This document shows positions 30,504-43,859 of a stretch of 45,937 nucleotides of DNA, in pieces (the first letter of the stretch is position 1; each line of letters begins with the position of its first letter). The stretch covers positions 1,732,518 through 1,778,454 of the forward strand of contig NZ_KE387023.1 of the NCBI RefSeq assembly GCF_000430045.1. Reading direction: 5' to 3'. The notes beneath the pieces are model-generated. The model saw only the letters and a program-made list of their open reading frames with translations. It made no database searches and was not told the origin of the DNA. The stretch is from Calidithermus chliarophilus DSM 9957 (GTDB taxonomy: Bacteria; Deinococcota; Deinococci; Deinococcales; Thermaceae). The translations under genes and the position numbers were made by a program.

Positions 30504-31934
30504 TCAGCGCGTCTCGATGCGGACGGTGGTGGTCCGGTTGGGCCGCACCTGCACGGCCTGGCGGTAGACGATCCGGCCGCCTGAGCGCACCTCGAGGGTG
30601 TAGCGGCCGGGCCGTAGCTGCAGGTTGATGGGGGTGCGGCCCGCCAGCCGCCCGTCGATGTACACGTCGGCCCCGGGGACGTCGGTCACGACGCTGAGCA
30701 CCCCGGTGGCCCCGGTGGGCGGCGCGGGGAGGGTGAGGGTGGCGCTGACGGTGGTGGTGCGGCCCGCCTGGACCGTGACGGTGGTGCGGTAGTCCTGGTA
30801 GCCCGGGCGCCGGACCTCCACGGTGTAGGTGCCGCTGTTGAGGCGGGCGCTGTAGGGCGTGCGGCCTACCAGCCGGCCGTTGATGTAGACGTCGGCGTTG
30901 GAGGGGTTGGAGGTGACGGTGAGCACGCCCTGGCTGACGACCGGGCTCAGGTTGACGTTGATGCGGCTGTTGGCGCCGGGGGCGATGGCGACGGTGGTGC
31001 GGTAGGTCTGGTAGCCCTGGCGGCGCAGCTCGAGGGTGTAGCTGCCCGGGTTGAGGCTGAGGTTGACCGGGGTGTTGCCCACCAACTGGCCGTTGACGAA
31101 GACCTGCGCCCCGGGCGGGTTGGAAGTGACGGCGAGGGTGCCGCTGAGGTTGATGCGCCGCAGGTTGGCGCTGATGCGGGTCGAGGTCCCGCCCTCCACC
31201 GAGATGGTGGTGCGGTAGGGCTCGTAGCCGGGGTAGGTGAGCTGCACGCTGTACTGGCCGCTGTCGAGGGTGAGGGTGGCGGGGGTGGTGCCCGCGCGCT
31301 GGCCGTTGATGTAGACGGTGGCCCCGGCGGGGTTGGAGTCGATCACCAGGGTGCCGGTGGGAGGGGGCGGCGGGGTGTACTGGCCGACGTAGTAGAAGGC
31401 CACGTCGCTGACCCAGTCCTGGTCGGGCAGCGGCTCGACCACGATGGCCATGGCCTGGCCGAGCTCCTGGCGCCCGTTGACCAGGGCGCGGTTGTTGGCG
31501 ATGTCGTAGACGCGGGAAAGGTCGAGCGGGGTGCGGCTGGCGACGGCCAGGACCACGCTCTCCCCGAAGGGCGGGGTGACGTCGAAGGTGTAGCGGGCCC
31601 CCACGGGCGGGAAGGTGGCGACCTCGTTGGCCCGGATGAAGTTGTCCTGGTCGTAGGGGTTGGGCAGGATGAGGTCGATGTCGCCGCTGGGCAACACCCC
31701 GAAGAGGTAGACGTAGGCGTCCTGGTTGGTCTGCACCGAGACGCGGATGTTCTCGCCCACCTGGTAGACCGGCGCACCGCTCTTGCTGGGGTCCTTGTCC
31801 ACCCACACCCGCACCTGGAGGTCGGTGGGGACGGGGTTGACGATGATGCGCTGCGGGTCGATGCGCTGGCCCAGGGCCAGGCTGCCGAGGGCAATGAGGA
31901 GAAGGCAATGGAGCCAATGGATGCTTCGTATCAT
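30504..31934 (-). CDS. Secreted DUF4384 protein with four PEGA repeats
   Basis: 476 residues from ATG 31934, with GAGGGG ahead of it; the longer frame from 32039 is rejected because it runs through TATACT (31951-31956) and into the neighbour. A signal peptide occupies ~1-22. DUF4384 spans ~35-170 (LQVRVWVDKDPS, YQVGENIRVSVQTNQDAYVY, DLILPN). A PPPPP linker leads to four consecutive PEGA domains at about 195-262, 265-332, 336-403 and 411-476, each with the SNPxGAxVYINGxxxGxTP and PGYxxYRTT pattern. PEGA domains are beta sandwiches found in surface proteins. It is probably periplasmic or S-layer associated. Divergent from the UDG-like gene. Confidence 0.88.
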   Translation of the reverse strand: MIRSIHWLHCLLLIALGSLALGQRIDPQRIIVNPVPTDLQVRVWVDKDPSKSGAPVYQVGENIRVSVQTNQDAYVYLFGVLPSGDIDLILPNPYDQDNFIRANEVATFPPVGARYTFDVTPPFGESVVLAVASRTPLDLSRVYDIANNRALVNGRQELGQAMAIVVEPLPDQDWVSDVAFYYVGQYTPPPPPTGTLVIDSNPAGATVYINGQRAGTTPATLTLDSGQYSVQLTYPGYEPYRTTISVEGGTSTRISANLRRINLSGTLAVTSNPPGAQVFVNGQLVGNTPVNLSLNPGSYTLELRRQGYQTYRTTVAIAPGANSRINVNLSPVVSQGVLTVTSNPSNADVYINGRLVGRTPYSARLNSGTYTVEVRRPGYQDYRTTVTVQAGRTTTVSATLTLPAPPTGATGVLSVVTDVPGADVYIDGRLAGRTPINLQLRPGRYTLEVRSGGRIVYRQAVQVRPNRTTTVRIETR

Positions 31935-31950
31935 AGGGAACCCCTCGAGC

Positions 31951-31956
31951 AGTATA
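31951..31956 (-). promoter_or_regulatory. -10 box TATACT of the PEGA gene (leadered)
   Basis: On the minus strand TATACT precedes a 16-base leader with GAGGGG, then ATG. This is one of the genes with a normal ribosome binding site. Confidence 0.6.
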
Positions 31957-32010
31957 GGCTCAGCAGGTAAACAGGACTTTAGAGCACAATCCACAAGAGA
32001 AAGGGGGTTC

Positions 32011-32700
32011 ATGGCTATGGACTCACTCGAGCAACTCAACCAGCGCCTGCGGGAGGGCGTGCGGTGCGACGGCGACTACCCGCCCGTGCCGGGGGAGGGC
32101 AACCCGAACAGCCCGGTGGTGCTCATCGGGCACAGCCCCTCCGGCACCGACGCCCAGACCGGCCGGCCCTACAGCGGCCCCGCCGGGGAACTGCTCGACG
32201 AACTGCTGGCCGAGGCCGGGGTCAAGCGCGAGGAGCTCTACATCACCAACCTGGTCAAGTGCTGGACCTGGCGGGAGGAGAACGGCCTGCGGGTCAACCG
32301 CACCCCCAGCGCCAAGGAGATCAAGGAGTGGGTACCGGCCTGGCTCAAGCCCGAGCTCGAGCTCATCAGGCCCAAGGCCATCGTCTGCATGGGGGGCCCC
32401 ACCGCCCAGCACTTCCTGGGCAAGGACTTCAAGATCACGCTGCAGGGGGGGCAGTGGCTCGAGCTGCCCGAGGACTCCCCCTACCTCAAGCTCACCGGCC
32501 ACCGCCTCGACCCCAAGCCCTTCGTGATGGGGGTGGTGCAGCCGAACTACCTCACCCACCTGCAGGAGCACGCCCCCGAGACCTACCCGGCCGCCCGCGC
32601 CAACCTCGTCGCCGACCTGCTCAAGATCAAGCGGGTGCTCGAGGGCAAGCTGCCCAAGCCCAAAGCCCCCAAGCAGGAAGAGCTGGACATCCCCTTCTGA
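32011..32700 (+). CDS. Divergent uracil-DNA glycosylase superfamily protein lacking the Fe-S cysteine set
   Basis: 229 residues from ATG 32011 (AAGGGGG ahead; ATG 32017 also in frame). The core follows family-4 UDG: TGRPYSGPAGELLDELLAEAG, REELYITNLVKCW, PKAIVCMGGPTAQHFLG. The usual motif 1 (GEGPG) is IGHSPSG at 39-45, and the HPA/HPS motif 2 is VQPNYL at 176-181, so the catalytic-loop His is missing. Only Cys19, Cys84 and Cys126 exist; a family-4 enzyme has a CxxC at the N-terminus plus two later Cys. A 4Fe-4S cluster is therefore unlikely. It may act on another lesion or have lost glycosylase activity. Its TGA stop forms the left flank of the MITE-like element. Confidence 0.78.
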   Translation: MAMDSLEQLNQRLREGVRCDGDYPPVPGEGNPNSPVVLIGHSPSGTDAQTGRPYSGPAGELLDELLAEAGVKREELYITNLVKCWTWREENGLRVNRTPSAKEIKEWVPAWLKPELELIRPKAIVCMGGPTAQHFLGKDFKITLQGGQWLELPEDSPYLKLTGHRLDPKPFVMGVVQPNYLTHLQEHAPETYPAARANLVADLLKIKRVLEGKLPKPKAPKQEELDIPF

Positions 32701-32833
32701 TACCCGGTTCGGTCGGTCCGGCGCCGGACGGCGGCGGGCTGCCAGGGCCGGAGTTATCCGCGTGGCGGAGGGAGCGCTCTGCGGTCCGAAAAGATAGCCT
32801 CTGGGGGTCTTTGGTTCGGTTTTGAACCCGGTA
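32701..32833 (+). mobile_element. MITE-like inverted-repeat element, copy 2 (133 bp)
   Basis: Ends TACCCGGTTCGG and GAACCCGGTA, flanked by TGA at 32698-32700 and 32834-32836. It shares GGTTCGGT-GGTCCG near the left end and AAAAGATAGCCTCTGGGG, TCTTTGGTTCGG and CCCGGTATGA near the right with the minus strand of copy 1. The long hairpin of copy 1 is replaced by a 14-base perfect palindrome GTCCGGCGCCGGAC (32716-32729) at the same position. Confidence 0.75.
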
Positions 32834-32873
32834 TGAAGGGGCCGGGGTACGGCGACGGGCCGGCCGCTGGCGG

Positions 32874-32879
32874 TATTTT
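32874..32879 (+). promoter_or_regulatory. -10 box TATTTT, leaderless
   Basis: Seven bases before GTG 32887. It moves the start of the kinase gene out of the MITE-like element, where the longer frame begins. Confidence 0.6.
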
Positions 32880-32886
32880 ATTGCTC

Positions 32887-33687
32887 GTGCGTCCTGACCC
32901 TCTCCAAATCCTGCGCCGGGCCGGGCTGAGTGCTCAGGGCCTCGAGCGCCTCGCCGGGGGCGACGTGAGCGAGGTGTGGCGGGCCGGGCCCTACGTGCTC
33001 AAACTGCGCCGCGACCCGCCGCCCGGCATGTTCGAGGCCGAGGCCCGCGGCCTCTACGCCTTGATGCAGGCCGGGGCGCGGGTGCCCGGGATCGTGTGGG
33101 CGGGGGAGGAGGGGCTGGTGCTGGAGTACCTGCCCCCCACCGCGCCCGACTGGGAGACCTTCGCCCGCACCCTCGCCGCGCTGCACAGGCTGCGCCCGCC
33201 GGCCTACGGCTGGGACACCCCGGTGTTTTTGGGCAGCTTCCGGCTGCCGGAGGGCACCCTCGAGGACTGGAGCCTGTTCTGGACCGAGTACCGCGTGCGG
33301 CCGCTGCTCGAGGCCGCCTGGGGCCGGCTGGGGGAGCTCGGGCCCAAGGTCGAGCGCTCGTTGCAAGACCCCCTGCCCGCCGAAGGCCCCGCCCTGCTGC
33401 ACGGGGACCTGTGGCACGGCAACGTGCACTTCTCGAGCGGCCCCGTGCTGCTCGACCCCTCGGCGTGGTGGGGCGAGCGGGCGGTGGACCTGGCGATGAT
33501 GCGGCTGTTCGGCGGCTTCCCGCCCGAATTCTGGCGCTACTACCGCGCCCTCTACCCCGTCCCCGCCGAGGTCGAGGCGGCCATCCCCCGTTACCAGCTT
33601 TACTACCTGCTCGCGCACGTGCATTTCTTCGGCCAGGCCTACCTCCCGGCGCTCGAGCGCACCCTCCTTGAGCTTGGCTTTAGGTAA
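32887..33687 (+). CDS. Fructosamine kinase / aminoglycoside phosphotransferase family protein
   Basis: 266 residues. The fold is protein-kinase-like: GGDVSEVWRAGPYVLKLRR carries the ATP-binding Lys, EAEARGLYALMQAGA the helix-C Glu, LLHGDLWHGNV the catalytic loop (HGDLWxGN) and LLDPSAWWGERAVDLAMM the metal-binding Asp and family signature. HGDLWxGN with DPSxWWGxRExDL is diagnostic of fructosamine/ketosamine kinases, which phosphorylate glycated lysines so that the sugar falls off. This repairs glycation damage, plausible at high growth temperature. The start GTG 32887 is set by the -10 box. Confidence 0.88.
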   Translation: MRPDPLQILRRAGLSAQGLERLAGGDVSEVWRAGPYVLKLRRDPPPGMFEAEARGLYALMQAGARVPGIVWAGEEGLVLEYLPPTAPDWETFARTLAALHRLRPPAYGWDTPVFLGSFRLPEGTLEDWSLFWTEYRVRPLLEAAWGRLGELGPKVERSLQDPLPAEGPALLHGDLWHGNVHFSSGPVLLDPSAWWGERAVDLAMMRLFGGFPPEFWRYYRALYPVPAEVEAAIPRYQLYYLLAHVHFFGQAYLPALERTLLELGFR

Positions 33688-41787: not shown

Positions 41788-43383
41788 TCACGAAGAGCCG
41801 GGGCCGCTTGGCCTCAGTGAGGCTTTGCGTCCTTTTCCCCGGCCGGGATTGGACCCGTAGCCGTAGCCATAGCCGTAGGTGAACCGGCCGGAGAACGCCG
41901 GCCCGTGCCGCAGGTTGGTCATGACCAGGCCCACGACCCTCGCCCCCACCCGCGACAGCACCTCGAGGGTGGCCTCCAGGCGCTTGCGGTCGGTGCCGCC
42001 CTCGCTGACGGCCACCAGCACGCCCGAGGCGTGCGGCGCGAGGACCAGGGCGTCGCTCACGGCCAGGGCCGGGGGGGAGTCGACGACGATCACCTTGTAC
42101 CGGCCGGTGTGGACCAGGTTGTTGAGGAAGTCCCGCCAGTGCTCGGCCAGCAGCTCGGCCGGGTCCTCCGGGGCCGCGAGGCAGGGGAGCACCTCGAGGT
42201 TGGGCGCCACCGGGTGGGCGTGCGCGGAGTAGGTGAAGTCCTTGAGGCTCTCGACCAGGTCCCAGCCCCGCGCGATCCCGAACTCGCGGTGGATCACCGG
42301 CTTGCGCAGGTCGGCGTCGACGAGCAGCGTCGGGAGGTCGGCGCGGGCGTAGGCGCGGGCCAGGCTGATGGCCACGCTCGACTTCCCCTCGGCCTTCTCC
42401 GGGCTCGTCACCAGGACCACCTTGGGGTGCTTGTCGGCCAGGGCGTGGTGGACGCCGGTGCGCAGGAAGGCGGCGGCCTCGGCGGGCAGCTCGCGCCTGC
42501 CGTTGGGGGGCATCCGGGGGAACTCGCCCAGCACCGGCAGGCCGCTCACCCGGGCGGCCTCCTCCGAGTCCCGGACCACCCGGACCAGGGCTTCTTGGAG
42601 GAGGACGAGCCCGAAGAACAGGAAAGGGGTGATCGCCGCGGCCGCGGCCGCGCCGAGGAGGGGCCGGGGTGCGGAGGGCTCGAGGGGGACTTGCGCTTGT
42701 TCCAGCGAGGCGAGCAAGCCCACGGCGCTCTCCTCCAGGGCGCGGGCCAGGTCCCGGTCGTGCGCCAGGTTTCCCCGCAGCGCGTCCAGGCTGCGCAGGC
42801 GGTCGGGGTCCTTGAGCTGGCGGGCCTGGCGGATCTCGGTGAGGATGGCCTCGAGCTGGGCCTCCACCGAGCGCCGGTAGCGGGTGAAGTGCTCGCGGGC
42901 GCGCTGGTCCTCCCACGACCGCAGCGCAGCAGCCCAGGCGTTGGCCAGCCGTGCGGCCCGCGCGGGGCTGTGGTCCCTCACGCGCAGCGTGATCACGCTG
43001 GACTGGCGCCCTTCCGCGGTCCTGACCTTGGCGGCTTTACGCAACCTCGCCAGGGCCTGCGGGTCCCCCGGCTCCCCGGCCAACGCCAGCGCTTGGCGGA
43101 GAACTTGCGTGCTCAGGGCGGCTTCCTTGTAGGCCTGGGCGTCCAGGGGGGCCACGCTCACCAGCGGCGCGGTGAAGGAGCCGGTCGAGCCTGCCGGGCC
43201 GGGCTGAACGGCTACCAGGCTGCTGGCCGACTCGTACACGAGCGGTTGTTGCTTGAGCGCGAAGTAAGTGGCGGTAGCGCTCAGCAAAGCCGCGGGCAGG
43301 GCCCACCGGATGGCCCGCAGCAGCAGCGGGATTAAGCGCTCGAGGCTGATTTCTTGGGTGCCGTCAGAAGTGTAGGGCGTCAT
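41788..43383 (-). CDS. Polysaccharide co-polymerase / BY-type tyrosine autokinase (Wzz-Wzc-like)
   Basis: 531 residues from ATG 43383, with GGAG 5 bases upstream; ATG 43434 is an alternative. A Wzz-type domain lies between membrane helices at about 25-45 and 255-280, with a coiled-coil region (EAQLEAILTEIRQARQLKDP) between. The cytoplasmic kinase has Walker A VTSPEKAEGKSSVAISLARA, Walker A' LLVDADLRKP and Walker B-like VIVVDSPPAL. The C-terminus has a tyrosine cluster (FTYGYGYGYGS), the autophosphorylated tail of BY-kinases. These enzymes control chain length and export of capsule or exopolysaccharide. No glycosyltransferase, Wza or phosphatase genes are adjacent. Confidence 0.9.
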   Translation of the reverse strand: MTPYTSDGTQEISLERLIPLLLRAIRWALPAALLSATATYFALKQQPLVYESASSLVAVQPGPAGSTGSFTAPLVSVAPLDAQAYKEAALSTQVLRQALALAGEPGDPQALARLRKAAKVRTAEGRQSSVITLRVRDHSPARAARLANAWAAALRSWEDQRAREHFTRYRRSVEAQLEAILTEIRQARQLKDPDRLRSLDALRGNLAHDRDLARALEESAVGLLASLEQAQVPLEPSAPRPLLGAAAAAAITPFLFFGLVLLQEALVRVVRDSEEAARVSGLPVLGEFPRMPPNGRRELPAEAAAFLRTGVHHALADKHPKVVLVTSPEKAEGKSSVAISLARAYARADLPTLLVDADLRKPVIHREFGIARGWDLVESLKDFTYSAHAHPVAPNLEVLPCLAAPEDPAELLAEHWRDFLNNLVHTGRYKVIVVDSPPALAVSDALVLAPHASGVLVAVSEGGTDRKRLEATLEVLSRVGARVVGLVMTNLRHGPAFSGRFTYGYGYGYGSNPGRGKGRKASLRPSGPGSS

Positions 43384-43859
43384 AGCCACTCCATGGGATA
43401 GAGGGTGAGAACGGTTCGTAGCCTTGCCTTCCATACACTCGCTCGAGAACGACCGTACTGCTTAAGCCGAACAGCTACGCTCGTAGTTCATGCTTCCCCA
43501 GGGGTTATCCGGCCTCAGGGATACCGAGCGTGAGCCGAAACGAAACTATAGAAAGCAGCCGCCCAACCGTCACGAGTGTTACTTGAAACCGCGTCGCTCA
43601 TCGAAGTGGGTGTAAGGGACCTGGCCGTTTCGAAAAGGCTGAATACGGGCAGAACGGGGGAGATCCATCGGCCCTGCTAAAGACGAGATCGGAATTCCAC
43701 AGATCAGCGAGGGCAAAGAACATAAGGATGCAGCTCACCTCCTCGAGCAATGGCTTCCCCAAGATTGGAGCGAAAACCTCCGTCAGCCGGGATTCACCGG
43801 GGAAGTGAGCCAAAACTACTTCTCTACCGCAACAAAAACGCAACGGTTCGGTCAAACGG
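43384..43859. other. 476 bp of atypical, lower-GC intergenic DNA without a supported gene
   Basis: This stretch is visibly richer in A and T than the rest of the window. A minus-strand frame at 43598-43855 would encode 85 residues, and a plus-strand stretch near 43670-43850 reads as an open polar sequence, but neither has a ribosome site, a promoter or a recognised motif. ACTATAGAAAG near 43544 could hold a -10 box. It may be a decayed gene or transferred DNA. I see no terminal repeats. Confidence 0.4.

Follow-up and report, generated by a model that had tools for sequence, protein, structure and literature searches.

A Deinococcota clade of uracil-DNA glycosylase-like proteins with replaced motif residues and an SSB-like C-terminal tail

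Is a protein that has the layout of a uracil-DNA glycosylase (UDG), and in which residues of motifs 1 and 2 are replaced, still a glycosylase, or has it become a DNA-binding relative or a decayed copy? This question is raised by a gene at positions 32011-32700 (+) of the window, that is, the whole stretch of 45,937 nucleotides of the Calidithermus chliarophilus DSM 9957 genome that we analysed. Its translation gave an open frame of 229 amino acids plus a stop, with a second ATG at 32017 as an alternative start, and it is with this second methionine that colinearity to the C. roseus copy begins. The protein matched the PF03167 profile with an E-value of 2.2e-27 (96.3 bits against a curated cut-off of 24.3), and its best solved relative in phmmer was 1ui0, the Thermus thermophilus (Tth) UDGa, at 2.9e-25, the UdgX structures coming after it at 3.6e-20 and weaker. 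Membership in the UDG superfamily, as the original prediction had it, is far beyond chance. Comparison with the HMMs of UDG families showed that the protein passed PF03167 and fell below the curated cut-offs of both TIGR03914 (UdgX; 115.3 against 189.95) and TIGR00758 (family 4; 99.4 against 125.3). All members of the clade described below scored between 95.5 and 119.3 bits on TIGR03914, below 189.95, and the C. chliarophilus protein did not match the family-4 signatures GE(A/G)PG, HPA and four cysteines. A search of PHROGs gave a single weak match (0.014).

The AlphaFold2 model, made with 23 aligned sequences, had a mean pLDDT of 92.2 and a pTM of 0.89, with residues 225-229 below 50, and the 229-aa protein is predicted to have the alpha/beta UDG fold. 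Foldseek of the model placed UdgX 6ajo first, at 6.0e-18, with 1ui0 at 1.1e-16. Alignment with VIA-align gave a tie, at Z 25.9 and 1.9 A, for UdgX 6ajo (191 residues) and Tth UDGa 1ui0 (185 residues), so that the structural comparison with the T. thermophilus enzyme, in which the original prediction had sought a check, came out equal for UdgX. The features of the gene are given in Table 1.

Table 1. Features of the UDG-like gene, in coordinates of the window
Feature	Position	Strand	Evidence
UDG-superfamily gene	32011..32700	+	ORF, PF03167, phmmer, AlphaFold2 model
Cys19, kept second position of Fe-S CxxC; first Cys absent	32065..32067	+	alignment
Motif 1 GHSPSG; His41 replaces family-4 Glu41 / UdgX Glu52	32128..32145	+	alignments; invariant 7/7
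Asp47, replaces Glu47, which excludes thymine in Tth UDGa	32149..32151	+	alignment; invariant 7/7; sections of PMC5387724
Tyr54, replaces stacking Phe54	32170..32172	+	alignment; invariant 7/7
Asn80, kept uracil-recognition residue	32248..32250	+	alignment; invariant 7/7; role per sections of PMC5387724
Cys84, kept third Fe-S position; fourth position is Trp107	32260..32262	+	alignment
Extended motif-3 loop, of UdgX length	32263..32301	+	ungapped against UdgX; 7-residue gap against UDGa
Asn96, on the position of the UdgX cross-linking His (His109)	32296..32298	+	profile alignment; invariant 7/7
S156-M173 stretch ahead of motif 2, with 14-15-residue insertion	32476..32529	+	alignments
Motif 2 QPNYLTH..H	32539..32571	+	alignments
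C-terminal tail EELDIPF, like the SSB C-terminal tip	32677..32697	+	alignment; pLDDT <50 for 225-229

The alignments placed GHSPSG at residues 40-45, as claimed for motif 1, and QPNY at residues 177-180, where the HP of motif 2 had been said to be replaced; in the profile alignments Gln177 falls on the catalytic His of both UdgX and UDGa. Motif 2 also has His183 for the DNA-binding Arg, and His187. The residues H41, D47, Y54, N80, N96, Q177, Y180, H183 and H187 were invariant in all seven members of the clade. Conservation of the two motifs among orthologues was thus complete for H41 and Q177 and incomplete for their prolines, P43 being an alanine in genome G100 and P178 an alanine in genome G019 (motif 2 QANY). 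The stretch between S156 and M173 contains 14-15 residues without counterpart in the aligned UdgX and in most UDGa rows. Seven pocket positions, named beforehand from the consulted sections of the work on Tth UDGa (PMC5387724), map to 41, 42, 47, 54, 80, 96 and 177; six of them did not vary, compared with 56 among the 197 gap-free positions (p 0.0023, with relatives treated as independent). Judged from the alignments, the half of the pocket that recognises the base appears to be kept (N80, the aromatic residue at 54, N96), while the leaving-group half appears to be replaced. Because family-4 enzymes have either H or N at position 109, according to an excerpt of PMC10359453, N96 alone is ordinary for family 4; the unusual feature is H41 together with Q177, D47 and H183.

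The description of the protein as lacking the Fe-S cysteines was right for two of the four, the first and the fourth, and overstated for this copy, since C19 and C84 remain. The number of cluster cysteines varied with the member, from all four in G048 to two in the five Thermaceae copies and none in the whole protein of G100. In the Deinococcota family f3, for which a match was listed in 34 genomes, the 24 canonical UDGa copies examined (L180-L202 and L076) were all without cluster cysteines and kept GE[AG]PG and HPA[YF]L; in the G050 copy two cysteines occur at other places. Family-4 UDGs free of the Fe-S cluster therefore look like the norm in f3, and the four-cysteine feature is an unreliable marker of family 4, the f3 UDGa being without it. 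The cysteines are not diagnostic of the clade either, because one member has four and the canonical UDGa of f3 also lack them; loss of the cluster is better seen as a trend inside the clade, probably a tolerated structural change and not a defining feature. The idea that losing the Fe-S cluster brought about the motif changes was considered and rejected, one clade member having four cysteines and the f3 UDGa having lost theirs without changes in the motifs.

A search of 111 Deinococcota genomes with an orthologue threshold of E 1e-30 found orthologues in seven, and in five of the 50 genomes of the source family. Identity to the C. chliarophilus copy was 84% for C. roseus, 73% for G019, 69% for G007, 68% for G004, 53% for G100 and 52% for G048. 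None of the seven copies has an internal stop. The dN/dS ratio (Nei-Gojobori) of the two closest pairs was 0.231 (C. chliarophilus and C. roseus) and 0.145 (G007 and G004), which indicates that close pairs are under purifying selection. Values of 0.204-0.394, at dS 0.84-1.24, were obtained for the other pairs tried, and the pair of C. chliarophilus and G100 was saturated. The gene is not one decayed copy, since it belongs to a clade of orthologues with common replaced residues: no orthologue with canonical motifs was found in the clade, and the alternative of decay that had accompanied the original prediction was discarded on the dN/dS values and the copies free of internal stops. The suggestion of a new subfamily held up, with orthologues that form one clade and carry identical residue replacements. 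The gene is intact and belongs to a conserved Deinococcota clade without a name, a variant near UdgX. Searches of the open PMC library, only some of them directed at the clade, brought up no title about a clade of this kind.

An origin from a phage or a plasmid was also considered and rejected. With tblastn, 17 of 50,697 phage records and 413 of 72,556 plasmid records matched, all at less than 60% identity, and the five that were inspected (L114-L118; one phage, four plasmid) all have GE in motif 1 and HP in motif 2. A GH motif 1 was absent among the IMG/VR relatives listed (28/29 and 3/3 from two scans, some sequences being incomplete). Scans of genome contigs with short peptide patterns found nothing in one case and three clade members (L036-L038) in the other; these patterns missed other clade members, and the scans give no measure of absence outside Deinococcota.

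The place of the clade in the superfamily was studied on a tree of 36 sequences, comprising 7 clade members, 13 UDGa, 6 UdgX, 6 viral or phage and 4 UDGb-like sequences; two of the UdgX rows (L115 and L118) start further upstream than the others. The clade was monophyletic, with support of 100/99, and grouped with UdgX (99/98), with UDGa apart at 91/94. A tree made without rows L032 and L040 likewise put the clade with UdgX. Forcing the clade together with UDGa cost 8.65 log units (p-AU 0.193), and forcing UdgX together with UDGa cost 10.83 log units (p-AU 0.10); neither topology was rejected by the AU test. The link to UdgX is therefore the most likely one on these sequences, favoured and not proved, and it is not decisive because of the p-AU of 0.193 for the family-4 alternative and the tied structure match. 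Of the overall family-4 layout that had been proposed, the fold match to Tth UDGa stood, while the affinity in the tree went to UdgX over family 4. Two of the sequences above the UdgX cut-off, L032 and L120 (genomes G050 and G089), have GEIPG and GEVPG as motif 1, not GEQPG.

The original prediction made no mention of the C-terminal tail. In six of the seven members a linker that varies in length leads to an [IL]PF end (DIPF, DLPF or SLPF), the tail-less exception being G048, the first-branching member of the clade. Every one of the seven clade genomes has at least one SSB that ends in EEDLPF; G048 has a second SSB-like protein, L101 (G048:C21:63492-63800), without this tip. Endings of the type [ILVF]PF were found in none of the 318 gene calls made on the window and 20 further genome stretches (445,937 bases in all), a background in which the gene under study and the main SSB of the genome are not among the calls. 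No [IL]PF-type end was found in the 13 UDGa aligned, and no PF end in the four UdgX rows with visible ends (L032, L120, L118 and L115). The 13 UDGa, including L001 and L013, end in Q-x-x-L-[FL], which we take to resemble a beta-clamp-binding motif.

A RecJ match was present in all seven clade genomes, above the curated cut-off in two and split over two contigs in G019. The C. chliarophilus RecJ aligned to 2zxo over residues 14-643 of 651; against 5f54, presumably the Deinococcus radiodurans RecJ, the sequence match stopped at chain residue 573. The consulted parts of earlier studies report that the SSB tip acts through its terminal Phe and its acidic residues (PMC10164576), that D. radiodurans RecJ has been co-crystallised with EDDLPF, the SSB tip, and has its tip pocket at residues 553-629 (PMC4846377), and that this RecJ has a role in base excision repair (PMC7515722). 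Since the match to 5f54 ends at 573, before most of the pocket, RecJ as the partner of the clade tail is a guess. Any function of the tail is proposed from resemblance only. In a search of the literature on SSB-tip mimics, which was not thorough, the first 12 of 73 papers included no case of a glycosylase.

Five UDG-superfamily places were found in the C. chliarophilus genome (4.69 Mb): L001, a canonical UDGa; L002, which is UDGb-like; L004, a UNG of family 1; L005, a fragment that resembles L002; and the gene at 32011-32700. We assume the family names of the first four, partly from their motifs. The fragment L005 (G000:C7:278697-278978) lies about 3 kb from L002 (G000:C7:282087-282593), its visible end is identical to the end of L002, and a masked stretch adjoins it. 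The gene under study is flanked by a divergent PEGA/DUF4384 gene on one side and a fructosamine kinase gene on the other, and a scan for the sigma-70 consensus found no promoter-like site in 31700-32900. Its neighbours differ between genera, bar one gene common to G019 and G007, so that the context gives no support for a function. The common neighbour, of about 201 aa, lies on the opposite strand in G019 (L070:6273-6878) and on the same strand in G007 (L071:6282-6887), and the two copies are 65% identical. Elsewhere in the window, a 548-aa frame at 41788-43434 (-) had no Pfam match at 1e-5 and was kept as a gene by the composition-based filter.

The reading that we prefer, at a probability of about 0.4, is that the protein is a specialised base-lesion glycosylase with its SSB-like tail as a dock. 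The flipped-out DNA base would be held by Asn80, through a bidentate contact to uracil N3/O4, and by stacking on Tyr54; Asn96 would position the attacking water, like N89 of family-4 UDGa, and His41 and Gln177 might stand in for the Glu/His pair that touches the leaving base at O2. Asp47, being smaller, may admit a 5-substituted pyrimidine. Catalysis on plain uracil would probably be weak and a narrower lesion served, plain uracil presumably being covered already by the three other UDGs of the genome (UNG-, UDGa- and UDGb-like). The [IL]-P-F tail could imitate the SSB tip and so dock on tip-binding proteins, RecJ being one candidate. In the sections of PMC5387724 consulted, F54Y largely keeps the activity of UDGa and water coordination is proposed for N89. 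The same sections report that H155S lowers k2 by more than three orders of magnitude and that E41Q lowers k2/Km by three orders; in the kinetics table of PMC10776899, as far as this source was consulted, the entry for UdgX H178A is N.A. The C. chliarophilus protein may therefore be inactive, mutants of the motif-2 His and of the motif-1 Glu being severely impaired.

This possibility leads to a serious and only slightly less probable alternative, a non-catalytic lesion binder, in which the retained pocket recognises uracil or an abasic site and the tail recruits repair proteins, while the glycosidic bond stays uncut. Both side chains at the O2 end of the uracil are changed, losses that are severe in known enzymes, and N80, the aromatic residue at 54 and N96 are all kept; the tail likewise suggests recruitment. 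Against a binder, the replacing residues are invariant in all seven copies, above the expectation for released positions (the p of 0.0023 comes from a test that ignores relatedness), and family 2 enzymes without the motif-2 His are still glycosylases according to the sections seen of PMC5387724. We put the glycosylase slightly above the binder because the replacements are fixed across copies that are about 50% identical, unlike what is expected for simple loss of function.

Covalent capture of DNA as in UdgX, with the nucleophile moved so that His41 attacks C1' and stays bound, is quite unlikely. The clade lies next to UdgX in the tree and its motif-3 loop is as long as in UdgX, in which Glu52 and His109 interact according to excerpts of PMC10776899 and PMC10359453, and the title of 6l6s describes UdgX H109E crystallised crosslinked to ssDNA. 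On the other side, the main chain of motif 1 contacts uracil O2 in the sections consulted of PMC5387724 and the reach of the side chain to C1' is unsupported, and the protein lacks Q53 and the KRRIH loop as well as the motif-2 His that serves in excision. We give an equally small chance to a bolder version, a second natural design of a DNA-capturing glycosylase, in which the catalytic His/Glu pair of UdgX would be inverted, with His placed in motif 1 and Asn in the loop, His41 would act on a modified pyrimidine as nucleophile or as base, and the SSB-mimicking tail would bring RecJ or another tip-binder to the captured site. A family-4 or UdgX paralogue in decay on its way to a pseudogene would fit the loss of motif residues and of most cysteines and the patchy distribution (7/111), but is highly improbable in view of the absence of internal stops, the low dN/dS of the two closest pairs and the identical replacements in distant copies.

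In this natural clade the motif-1 Glu and the motif-2 His are both replaced, and so are the gate residue E47 and the Arg that binds DNA, which makes the clade a ready test of the evolution of UDG chemistry and of whether the UDG pocket can accept other bases. A relative of UdgX with another specificity could be useful, UdgX being in use for genome-wide methods according to an excerpt of PMC10359453. An SSB-like tip on a glycosylase, if true, would be a direct link from base recognition to downstream repair proteins.

The clade resembles UdgX (TIGR03914; PDB 6ajo and 6ail) in its fold (Z 25.9 to 6ajo), in an equally long motif-3 loop and in being nearest to it in the tree, but KRRIH is absent and Asn96 stands where UdgX has the crosslinking His109. 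Sections of PMC10359453 report that replacements of this His lead to ordinary UDG activity to varying degrees. The clade also differs from UdgX in motif 1 (GHSPS against GEQPG) and motif 2 (QPNYLTH against HPSxLLR), in the insertion ahead of motif 2, in its incomplete Fe-S cysteines and in its SSB-like tail. With family 4 UDGa (Tth UDGa, 1ui0; TIGR00758) it shares the fold at the same Z of 25.9, Asn80, Asn96 (equivalent to N89) and an aromatic residue at 54, whereas H stands for E41, D for E47, and Q and H for the H and R of motif 2, the loop of the C. chliarophilus protein is 7 residues longer, and its C-terminus is DIPF instead of the QxxL[FL] of the 13 aligned UDGa. The canonical UDGa of family f3 without Fe-S cysteines are comparable in that the cluster cysteines were lost within the family-4 branch, but they keep GE[AG]PG and HPA[YF]L, and L076, which was included in the tree, sits among UDGa. 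Finally, the tail of the clade is short, acidic and ends in [IL]PF like the C-terminal tip of SSB (SSB-Ct), with the difference that it sits on a UDG-fold protein.
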